Assembly (NCBI GenBank): GCA_016892645.1
Contig: JAFEMX010000002.1
Location: forward strand, 186,001 to 250,000
Direction of reading: 5' to 3'
From: Micrococcaceae bacterium RIT 802
GTDB lineage: Bacteria; Actinomycetota; Actinomycetes; Actinomycetales; Micrococcaceae
DNA: 64,000 nt
Positions within the stretch are counted from its first letter, which is position 1. Every line of letters begins with the position of its first letter. The notes under the pieces were generated by a model that was not told where the DNA came from, did not search any database, and saw only the letters and a program-made list of their open reading frames with translations. A program made the position numbers and the translations under genes. This document shows, in pieces, positions 54,300 through 56,440 of the stretch.

Positions 54300-54318
54300 A
54301 CTATCCAGGTAGTTATGT
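54300..54318. promoter_or_regulatory. Motif shared by ligM and metF promoters (copy 1)
   Basis: ACTATCCAGGTAGTTATGT, 93 bp upstream of ligM. It matches 15 of 19 bases of ACTATGGACGTAGATATGT, the reverse complement of 56422-56440 upstream of metF. The CTA-N6-TAG core is palindromic. Confidence 0.55.
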
Positions 54319-54430
54319 CGAGGGATAGGCCGACGGGAATCCCCCTCACGGGCTGGTGGGGGCCGAAGCCCGTTCGGCGTCCGACCGGGCCGCCGTGGCA
54401 CACCTGTTCAATGTCTATGTCGATAGCTAC

Positions 54431-54464
54431 GATGTGAACCACATCACTCGCCTCGTGACGAGGC
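54431..54464 (+). promoter_or_regulatory. Tandem inverted repeats upstream of SBP2
   Basis: GATGTG-AAC-CACATC (54431-54445) overlaps the end of a possible -10 box TACGAT (54428-54433; TGTTCA 17 bp upstream). A second inverted repeat, GCCTCG-TGA-CGAGGC, lies at 54450-54464. Both are within 55 bp of the SBP2 start and look like operator or leader elements. Confidence 0.5.
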
Positions 54465-54484
54465 CCATCGAACGGAGTTGCAGC

Positions 54485-55471
54485 ATGAGCAGGATGAAAA
54501 GTGCCGTCGCGCTATTGGCGATTCTCGGTCTGACGGCGTGTGGGGGAGGCTCGCCGTCGTCCGGCGAGGCCGGGACCCCGTCCGCGGGATCCGGAAGCGG
54601 CTCCCTGGAACAGATCGAGGTCGGGGTGATCCCGATCGTCGACGTCGCGCCGATCTATCTGGGGGTCAAGGAAGGGATCTTCGAAAAGGAGGGGCTGGAG
54701 CTGAAGCTCACGCCTGCGCAGGGAGGTGCGGCGATCGTTCCGGGCGTGACCAGCGGGCAGATGGATTTCGGCTTTTCCAATGTCACCTCGATGATCGTCG
54801 GCAGGACCAAGGGCCTTCCGCTGAAGATGATGGCCCCCGGGGGAAGCACCACCGGTGATACCACGGCCGATTTCGCGTCCGTCATGACCAAGCCGGATAG
54901 CGGGATCACTGACATCGCCGGATTGGCGGGCAAGAAGATCGGCGTCAATACGCTGAACAACATCTCCGACTCCACGATTTCCGAGGCGGTGAAGCTGGCC
55001 GGCGGGGATTACGAATCGATCCATTTCGTGGAGATGGCATTCCCCGACATGACCGCCCAGCTGGCCAAGGGCAACGTGGATGCGATTGCCGCCGTGGAGC
55101 CGTTCGTGACCATATCCGAAGCCGATGGCAACGTGCCGGTCTTCTCCAACTACGCCGAGCCGGTCGATGACCTCACGGTCGCTGTCTACTTCTCAACCGA
55201 CCAGTATGTGGCGGAACACCCCGAAACGGCCGCGAAGTTCGTTCGGGCCATGAAGGCCTCGCAGGAATATGCCGAACAGAACCCCGAGAAGGTCAAGGCC
55301 ATCCTGCCGGAATACACCTCGTTGGAACCCGACGTCATCGAGAAACTCACCCTGCCGAAGTACAACACCGAGGTCAACACGGCGTCGATCCAGCAGATCG
55401 CCGACATCTCGCTTGACCGGGGATTGATCGACAAAATGCCCGACATGGGGAAGCTGCTGCCGACGGAGTAG
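54485..55471 (+). CDS. Orphan NMT1/THI5-like ABC substrate-binding lipoprotein (SBP2)
   Basis: A 328-residue exported binding protein. The signal peptide ends at the lipobox GLTAC (cysteine near residue 19). The mature part is paralogous to SBP1: GVIPIVDVAPIYLGVKEGIF, GQMDFGFSNVTSMIVGRTKG, and FVEMAFPDMTAQLAKGNVDA. It is divergent from ligM and convergent with metF. No permease or ATPase accompanies it, so it may dock on the 39158-41629 transporter. A methoxyaromatic ligand such as vanillate is inferred from its neighbours. Confidence 0.83.
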   Translation: MSRMKSAVALLAILGLTACGGGSPSSGEAGTPSAGSGSGSLEQIEVGVIPIVDVAPIYLGVKEGIFEKEGLELKLTPAQGGAAIVPGVTSGQMDFGFSNVTSMIVGRTKGLPLKMMAPGGSTTGDTTADFASVMTKPDSGITDIAGLAGKKIGVNTLNNISDSTISEAVKLAGGDYESIHFVEMAFPDMTAQLAKGNVDAIAAVEPFVTISEADGNVPVFSNYAEPVDDLTVAVYFSTDQYVAEHPETAAKFVRAMKASQEYAEQNPEKVKAILPEYTSLEPDVIEKLTLPKYNTEVNTASIQQIADISLDRGLIDKMPDMGKLLPTE

Positions 55472-55482
55472 CCCCTGCGAAT

Positions 55483-55518
55483 CCGGTGCCGGTCGGGATC
55501 GCTGCCCACCGGCACCGG
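55483..55518. terminator. Bidirectional hairpin between SBP2 and metF
   Basis: CCGGTGCCGGT (55483-55493) and ACCGGCACCGG (55508-55518) form a perfect 11-bp stem in the 55-bp gap between two convergent genes. It has no T-run. Confidence 0.6.
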
Positions 55519-55526
55519 CGCGCTGC

Positions 55527-56393
55527 CTAATGCCCGGCGTCGAAATCGGCCACCCATCGGGCAGTGGCCTGCAGGCCGCCGAATGTATAGAAATGCAACC
55601 GGACCTCCCCGTGGATGGCCGGGTCCAGGGCGGCTGCGAGCTCGGTGATGAACCGGTCGGGGCCGGCGGTGCCGAGCAGGTTGGCCAGGGAGAACCCGTA
55701 CTTGTGGGCGATGCCCGCCGACGACGACACCCCGAAGCGACGCGCATAGGTCAGCAGCCGCTTGATGCCGGCGGGACCCGGGACGCCGATGCGGACCGGG
55801 AGCCGGATGCCGCGGCGACGTAGTTCCTCCAGCCAGGAAAGCACCGGGCCGATATCGAACCCGAACTGCGTGATGATGGACCCGTCCAGGCCGGCTTCCC
55901 GGAGGGCCGCCGACTTGGCCTCCAGCGCCTCCCAGAGCGTGGCCTCGTCGATCTCGGGGTGCCCCTCGGGGTATCCGCCGATCGCGACCGCGCTGACGCC
56001 ATGGGCCTGCAGCCGTCCGGACGTGATCAGGGACAGGGCATCGGGAAACGGCCCGAGCGGGACGGTGGGGTCTCCGCCGACGGCAAACACCTCCTTGACC
56101 TGCGCGTCGGTCGTGAGCGCACCGAGGAATTCGTCGAGTTCGGCCACCGACCCGAGCCGACGGGCCGAAATATGGGGAATGGGCTCAAACCCTGCGGCCC
56201 GCACTGCGGCCGCGGCGGCAACGCGCATGGACAGGTTCTCGTTGCCCAGAAAGGTCACGTTGATCCGGGTTTCCGGTGGCAAGCCATCTGTGGCCTCGGC
56301 GAGGGCGTCATTGTCCTTGCCGGTCATTTCGAGGGAGAAACCGCGCACCAGATCGATGCCGGCGGACGGTCGGGAAGCCGGGGTGGAAGGCAT
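55527..56393 (-). CDS. metF: Methylenetetrahydrofolate reductase (MetF-like)
   Basis: A 288-residue TIM-barrel flavoprotein of the MTHFR family. Motifs: TRINVTFLGNENLSMR near residue 45, GFEPIPHISARRLGS, VFAVGGDPTVPLGPF near 115, and GGYPEGHPEI near 150. The C-terminal region includes TYARRFGVSSSAGI. Between ligM and the binding proteins its likely task is to oxidise the methyl-tetrahydrofolate made by O-demethylation back to methylene-tetrahydrofolate, as described for LigM pathways in Sphingobium. It may not serve methionine synthesis. The ATG at 56393 has an AAGGAC site; a start 27 bp upstream is less likely. Confidence 0.83.
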   Translation of the reverse strand: MPSTPASRPSAGIDLVRGFSLEMTGKDNDALAEATDGLPPETRINVTFLGNENLSMRVAAAAAVRAAGFEPIPHISARRLGSVAELDEFLGALTTDAQVKEVFAVGGDPTVPLGPFPDALSLITSGRLQAHGVSAVAIGGYPEGHPEIDEATLWEALEAKSAALREAGLDGSIITQFGFDIGPVLSWLEELRRRGIRLPVRIGVPGPAGIKRLLTYARRFGVSSSAGIAHKYGFSLANLLGTAGPDRFITELAAALDPAIHGEVRLHFYTFGGLQATARWVADFDAGH

Positions 56394-56421
56394 GGTGAAG
56401 TCCTTAGTGTCGGTCCCCACA

Positions 56422-56440
56422 ACATATCTACGTCCATAGT
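56422..56440. promoter_or_regulatory. Motif shared by ligM and metF promoters (copy 2)
   Basis: ACATATCTACGTCCATAGT, 29 bp upstream of metF. It is the reverse-oriented counterpart of the motif at 54300-54318. Confidence 0.55.

Follow-up and report, generated by a model that had tools for sequence, protein, structure and literature searches.

A 64,000-nt stretch of DNA from Micrococcaceae bacterium RIT 802 (contig JAFEMX010000002.1, positions 186,001 to 250,000; hereafter the window, numbered from its first nucleotide) contains ligM, which encodes a tetrahydrofolate-dependent O-demethylase, and directly behind it vanR, which encodes a PadR-family regulator, together with metF and a binding-protein gene, SBP1. 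Comparison of sequences leads us to propose, with a probability of roughly 0.9, that an inverted repeat shared by the ligM and metF promoters is the operator of VanR, and that VanR controls, beyond vanA, the folate-dependent LigM/MetF route. The initial annotation had suggested that a common regulator links O-demethylation to folate recycling, and this idea gains support from the repeat at all 35 metF genes and all 46 vanA loci among the relatives described below. Its candidate, the adjacent PadR protein, is favored by being the sole close VanR relative found in the genome, by its best solved match, the VanR of Corynebacterium glutamicum, and by the retention of the pocket contacts. The regulon of ligM and metF that it envisaged is sustained for both genes but was drawn too narrowly, as the sites before SBP1 and vanA had escaped it. 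The genes of the locus are:

52090–52713, minus strand: vanR, PadR-family regulator (PF03551, 43.8 bits), directly downstream of ligM on the same strand
52801–54207, minus strand: ligM, tetrahydrofolate-dependent vanillate/3-O-methylgallate O-demethylase (NF047885, 897.6 bits, cut-off 580)
54485–55471, plus strand: SBP1, NMT1/SsuA-type ABC substrate-binding protein (PF09084, 117.5 bits)
55527–56393, minus strand: metF, methylenetetrahydrofolate reductase (MTHFR) of a divergent subfamily (PF02219, 30 bits, cut-off 24)
56619–57608, plus strand: SBP2, second NMT1/SsuA-type binding protein (PF09084, 86.4 bits)

The two 19-mers from which the initial annotation had argued, ACTATCCAGGTAGTTATGT (54300–54318, plus strand) and ACTATGGACGTAGATATGT (56440–56422, minus strand), are indeed present and identical at 15 of 19 positions around a CTA-N6-TAG core. 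This core is a dyad with the consensus AcTAnCTATgnncATAGnTAgT, and the opposite orientation that had been ascribed to the copies therefore means little; the gene lying between ligM and metF, which had been given as SBP2, is in fact SBP1. Both copies stand, but a third, CTATGTCGATAG before SBP1, had been overlooked, and all three dyads of the window fall inside 54301–56439 (2.1 kb), one each before ligM, SBP1 and metF. A merged 19-mer pattern allowing up to three mismatches matched the pair alone in the window and nothing in 100 shuffles, although it was derived from the pair itself, and the bare core offers the fairer test, occurring three times against a shuffle mean of 0.63 and at least three times in 3 of the 100 shuffles. 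The 19-mer pair alone is thus only modestly unusual, and it is conservation elsewhere that carries the case. The predicted operators are:

54296–54317: predicted VanR operator 1 (core CTATCCAGGTAG, 54301–54312), in the ligM promoter, between ligM and SBP1
54410–54431: predicted VanR operator 2 (core CTATGTCGATAG, 54415–54426), in the SBP1 promoter
56423–56444: predicted VanR operator 3 (core CTACGTCCATAG, 56428–56439), in the metF promoter

A scan of named genomes returned at least 296 VanR relatives, and the best 80 loci were kept, nearly all of them from Micrococcales, with one from Nocardia and two from unplaced Actinomycetes assemblies. Across their 1.366 Mb, CTA-N6-TAG occurs 146 times, against 3–22 times for spacers of 2–5 and 7–9. 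Counted by gene piece, the dyad lies within 200 bp upstream of 35/35 metF, 46/48 vanA, 47/80 vanR and 7/42 ligM, whereas at the other spacers no more than five of any gene class have an upstream match. Both missed vanA pieces belong to one split gene (locus L115), giving 46 of 46 by locus, and the 35 metF genes include a distant paralogue at L140 (30% identical). Of the 46 loci that hold vanA, 43 have vanR in divergent orientation to it and no more than 400 bp away, and seven of eight SBP1 genes are preceded by an operator at 250 bp or less. Six loci (L099, L102 and L109, which are three of the six Paeniglutamicibacter loci, as well as L095, L098 and L101) mirror the window in their order, which runs vanA, site, vanR, site, metF, SBP1, two sites, ligM. 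A spacing of N10 is also enriched (131 matches, 40 of 48 vanA), but 108 of these matches use a half-site of the N6 dyad and are thus mostly the same repeat, leaving 23 unaccounted for.

Sites from other genomes single out the same three positions in the window. A symmetrized matrix, built from 106 unique sites of the 80 loci with the own genome excluded (the main matrix), ranks operator 2 first at 20.3, operator 1 second at 19.2 and operator 3 third at 14.7; the next window score is 3.9 and the maximum over 60 simulated windows is 11.5. A second matrix, drawn from 31 metF sites in loci without vanA, returns the same top three at 12.8, 12.5 and 10.8 for operators 2, 1 and 3, followed by 4.1.

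The repeat also connects this locus with vanA on another contig. In the 3.87-Mb genome, CTA-N6-TAG-N-TA has ten matches, of which three lie at this locus and three, representing two sites, on contig C37 directly before vanA, the gene for the Rieske vanillate O-demethylase (VanA_C 171.4 bits, Rieske 69.6 bits). One of these vanA sites agrees fully with the 22-bp consensus and the other has two mismatches, and their main-matrix scores are 37.6 and 28.8. A profile built from 75 sites of the VanR loci found five matches genome-wide at E ≤ 10; the two vanA sites, each on both strands, account for four of them, and the fifth is at SBP1. As a control, the N7 spacing gave six matches in this genome, none at these loci; a reversed pattern gave 68 matches against 10, a poor control given that the words used change. 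The remaining CTA-N6-TAG-N-TA matches, one on C13 beside an aldo/keto reductase gene, two on C1 and one on C34 between clpP and clpX, score 11.0, 11.0, 4.2 and 9.0, and we treat them as background because these values fall within the range of simulated sequence. Besides the VanR encoded beside ligM (463 bits to itself), the genome yielded two matches of 49.9 and 23.8 bits and no further close relative, so this VanR would most simply be the regulator of vanA.

The best solved matches of VanR are 6lg2 and 5z7b (176 bits, residues 1–190), and PMC7090077 describes 6LG2 as C. glutamicum VanR with vanillic acid. The two proteins are about 50% identical by alignment and share the segment DSQIYPELRKME without change. 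Specifically, the polar vanillate contacts Y103, R148 and Y168 (6LG2 numbering) correspond to Y102, R147 and Y167 in the window protein, and none of the three varies among 10 aligned sequences; V29 and L145 (same numbering) are kept as well.

Each of the three dyads sits between predicted −35 and −10 boxes, an arrangement that suits a repressor. The predicted promoters are:

54292–54321, minus strand: ligM promoter, TCGACA (54321–54316), 18 bp, TATGGT (54297–54292), a consensus match overlapping operator 1
54405–54433, plus strand: SBP1 promoter, TGTTCA (54405–54410), 17 bp, TACGAT (54428–54433), a consensus match with a weak −35 box, overlapping operator 2
56421–56449, minus strand: metF promoter, TGGACT (56449–56444), 17 bp, TATGTT (56426–56421), overlapping operator 3

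The outer TATGT of the metF 19-mer overlaps the predicted −10 box, and vanA of this genome has a similar predicted arrangement (TTGTCA-18-TAGTCT). Among relatives, 36 metF sites have on average 3.69 of 6 matches to a −35 hexamer at a distance of 17 bp from the −10 position, compared with 1.48 elsewhere, and 72% of them carry the last T of the −10 box; at 79 vanA sites of relatives the signal is weaker (2.58 against 1.54 elsewhere, last T in 53%). In the ligM leader, CACTACTTGGTACC at 54278–54291 resembles a degenerate operator half by eye.

To ask how far the arrangement holds nearer to home, we took the family to be Micrococcaceae and sampled 149 genomes, 42 of which encode LigM at E ≤ 1e-200 and 41 of these 42 also VanR. 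Counting a matrix score of at least 12 within 250 bp as an operator, one is present before ligM or the head of a metF/purU operon in 35 of the 41 other genomes, or 36 of 42 including this one, the kind of motif conservation in relatives that the initial annotation had proposed as a check. By LigM copy the figure is 42 of 64 (29 direct, 13 by operon). Within 250 bp upstream, operators are found at 21 of 34 metF and 9 of 14 SBP1 genes in the family loci, and of 78 strong matches in 577.7 kb of these loci, 67 are upstream of regulon-type genes. Some genomes occur in both surveys (e.g., G023 and L109), which are hence not independent.

Several observations weigh against the assignment of these sites to VanR. 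The window operators are weak, scoring 14.7–20.3 where the 5% quantile of the training sites is 18.5, and when the profile was run across the genome those of ligM and metF fell short of the E = 10 limit. The promoter boxes are called by consensus matching, and the TA of the −10 box is part of the dyad, limiting the independent evidence to the −35 box and the last T of the −10. Only 7 of 42 ligM gene pieces in the 80 loci have a direct upstream site; many of the others follow metF, and the succession of metF, ligM and vanR on one strand in 28 of the 80 loci, including 18 of 21 from Microbacterium, explains much of this low count. In the family survey, 22 of 64 LigM copies, many of them second copies, have no operator directly or by operon, 13 of 34 metF and 5 of 14 SBP1 genes have no site within 250 bp, and 11 of the 78 strong matches lie elsewhere. 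Five genomes (G061, G084, G143, G136 and G031) have LigM and VanR and no ligM operator by the cut-off, although G084 and G143 contain a strong match, excluded from the count, about 1.3 kb upstream; the sixth LigM genome without a ligM operator, G006, is also without VanR. Finally, two residues of the vanillate pocket differ from C. glutamicum VanR, M133 being replaced by K and H142 by S.

Among the alternatives, the one that survives best leaves VanR on its sites and changes the signal, such that the effector would be another methoxylated aromatic (3-O-methylgallate, syringate or veratrate). The two altered pocket residues fit this possibility, as does the NF047885 family itself, which spans vanillate and 3-O-methylgallate, but the three invariant polar contacts and the same operator at vanA point to vanillate, and we regard a different effector as unlikely. 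We give considerably less credence to the view that genuine sites serve chiefly a different regulator that responds to aromatics, VanR being no more than a neighbor. The window does encode an IclR-type (46199–47077) and a LysR-type (48658–49584) regulator, and IclR-type genes also stand close to a site in some relatives (one such gene was checked); on the other side stand the divergent vanR-vanA pairs with a dyad at every vanA locus, and the presence of VanR in all but one of the 42 LigM genomes. The two LigM genomes without a VanR ortholog, G006 and G049, have no ligM site (0/2), which points the same way but is too few to decide, and the tie of the 80 loci to VanR is partly built in, as they were chosen by VanR. 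A chance likeness of two AT-rich promoter stretches sharing a −10-like TATGT and a CTA…TAG core, which the shuffle frequency of the bare core and the overlap of TATGT with the metF −10 box would allow, is very improbable given the spacing-specific conservation in the 80 loci, including at orthologous genes, the exact ranking of the three sites by matrices from other genomes and the two strong copies before vanA.

With VanR as the regulator, a VanR dimer would, in the absence of vanillate, occupy the dyad, flanked by the two promoter boxes, and exclude RNA polymerase from its proposed targets, ligM-vanR, SBP1, metF and the distant vanA. Vanillate would bind VanR and release it from the operators, a step that we infer from C. 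glutamicum VanR as presented in PMC7090077 and PMC8358305. On release, the uptake protein SBP1, LigM, MetF and the Rieske demethylase VanA would be made together; LigM would move the methyl group from vanillate to tetrahydrofolate, and MetF would oxidize methyl-tetrahydrofolate. As vanR follows ligM, with which it probably forms one operon, VanR would also limit its own synthesis.

A more speculative extension, which we hold to be doubtful, is that a single vanillate sensor governs two demethylases of different chemistry and that operator strength switches one-carbon flux between them. The weak operators of ligM, SBP1 and metF would open first, so that at low vanillate the methyl group would go to folate, and the VanA oxygenase, with its consensus-like operator, would be added only at high vanillate. 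The VanA route should release formaldehyde. By the metF-site matrix, the vanA site of this genome reaches 31.0, against 12.8 for SBP1, 12.5 for ligM and 10.8 for metF; in relatives' loci with both sites, vanA exceeds ligM in 10 of 10 comparisons and SBP1 in 11 of 11, but metF in only 3 of 9, where the scores are not affinities, site-less pairs are omitted, some contigs appear twice among the loci, and ligM and SBP1 often have one intergenic site in common.

The remaining features of the locus bear on uptake and one-carbon metabolism. LigM passes the NCBIfam equivalog NF047885, whereas metF fails the canonical NCBIfam models, among them TIGR00676 for MetF (34.5 bits, cut-off 293.7), and has one strong solved match, 7xg9 at 266 bits, the next being 42.3. 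The ligand of SBP1 is probably a methoxylated aromatic acid. No operator precedes SBP2 among the ten best positions of the matrix scan, and we do not claim it as a regulon member. No permease gene adjoins SBP1 or SBP2; a third NMT1-type binding protein is encoded with permease and ATPase genes at 38187–41629, where a second permease-like frame is visible by eye between the transporter genes, and SBP1 and SBP2 may share this transporter. None of the ten best scan positions lies at these transporter genes.

Among relatives, L159 (Microbacterium lacus), the one metF-ligM-vanR locus scanned by profile for an intervening gene, has purU (formyltetrahydrofolate deformylase; 6552–7421) in the interval from metF to ligM, with one operator ahead of the three genes, which suggests a one-carbon recycling operon. 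At this position, other loci from Microbacterium show a gap large enough for a gene, and BLAST places purU between metF and ligM in six family genomes (G060, G068, G091, G105, G142 and G156). Strong operator-like sites (20.8 to 34) also occur outside the listed targets, at L068 ~9051 between two IclR-type genes (one confirmed) and, near an IclR-type gene by BLAST, at L200 7411, L207 7417 and L213 560; the neighbors of these four sites are possible further regulon members. Extra LigM copies (68–78% identical) with no operator within 250 bp are found in VanR genomes at L082, L083, L074, L076 and L226, and may serve other substrates; berberine demethylenases resembling LigM have been described in Arthrobacter (PMC5547118).

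Like the VanR of this locus, C. glutamicum VanR is a PadR-type protein with conserved polar vanillate contacts and an operator at vanA. Its described target is vanABK, adjacent to vanR; in the present locus vanR instead follows ligM, and ligM, metF and a binding-protein gene are among the predicted targets. The C. glutamicum operator is reportedly AACTAACTAA(N4)TTAGGTATTT, which scores 25.4 with the Micrococcales matrix when the N4 is set to zero. The reverse complement of a primer given in PMC8358305 contains the right end of this operator, AGGTATTT.

A coupling of ligM to metF is already known from Sphingobium sp. SYK-6, in which, according to PMC6888825, the vanillate-responsive DesR represses ligM in the operon ligM-metF-ligH and governs a regulon of ligM-metF-ligH, desB and desR with similar inverted repeats at its targets. 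DesR is described there as a MarR-type protein with the repeat GTTTGTGT(C/A)ACATAC, in a strain without a vanR-like gene, and a review (PMC13001107) describes the MTHFR of SYK-6 as having coevolved with LigM and as favoring the oxidation of methyl-tetrahydrofolate. The nearest known counterpart of metF would be this LigM-linked MTHFR subfamily, since we take its one strong solved match, 7xg9, to be the Sphingobium SYK-6 MTHFR.

Among the papers listed on this subject we recognized none that connects a PadR protein with ligM, which suggests only weakly that such a connection is unpublished. What appears to differ here is the regulator family, whose control would also take in vanA: SYK-6 places a vanillate-responsive repressor over ligM and metF, as we propose for this genome, but with a different repeat, and here the part of the MarR-type DesR would fall to a PadR-type VanR. 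For Micrococcales, these results put forward a candidate regulator, with its operator, of the folate-dependent demethylation of vanillate; they would connect this route with that of the Rieske enzyme VanA and with a putative uptake protein, and offer an operator with which to seek methoxy-aromatic genes in other genomes. They further suggest that these Actinobacteria use a PadR repressor for ligM-metF coupling where Sphingobium uses a MarR repressor.

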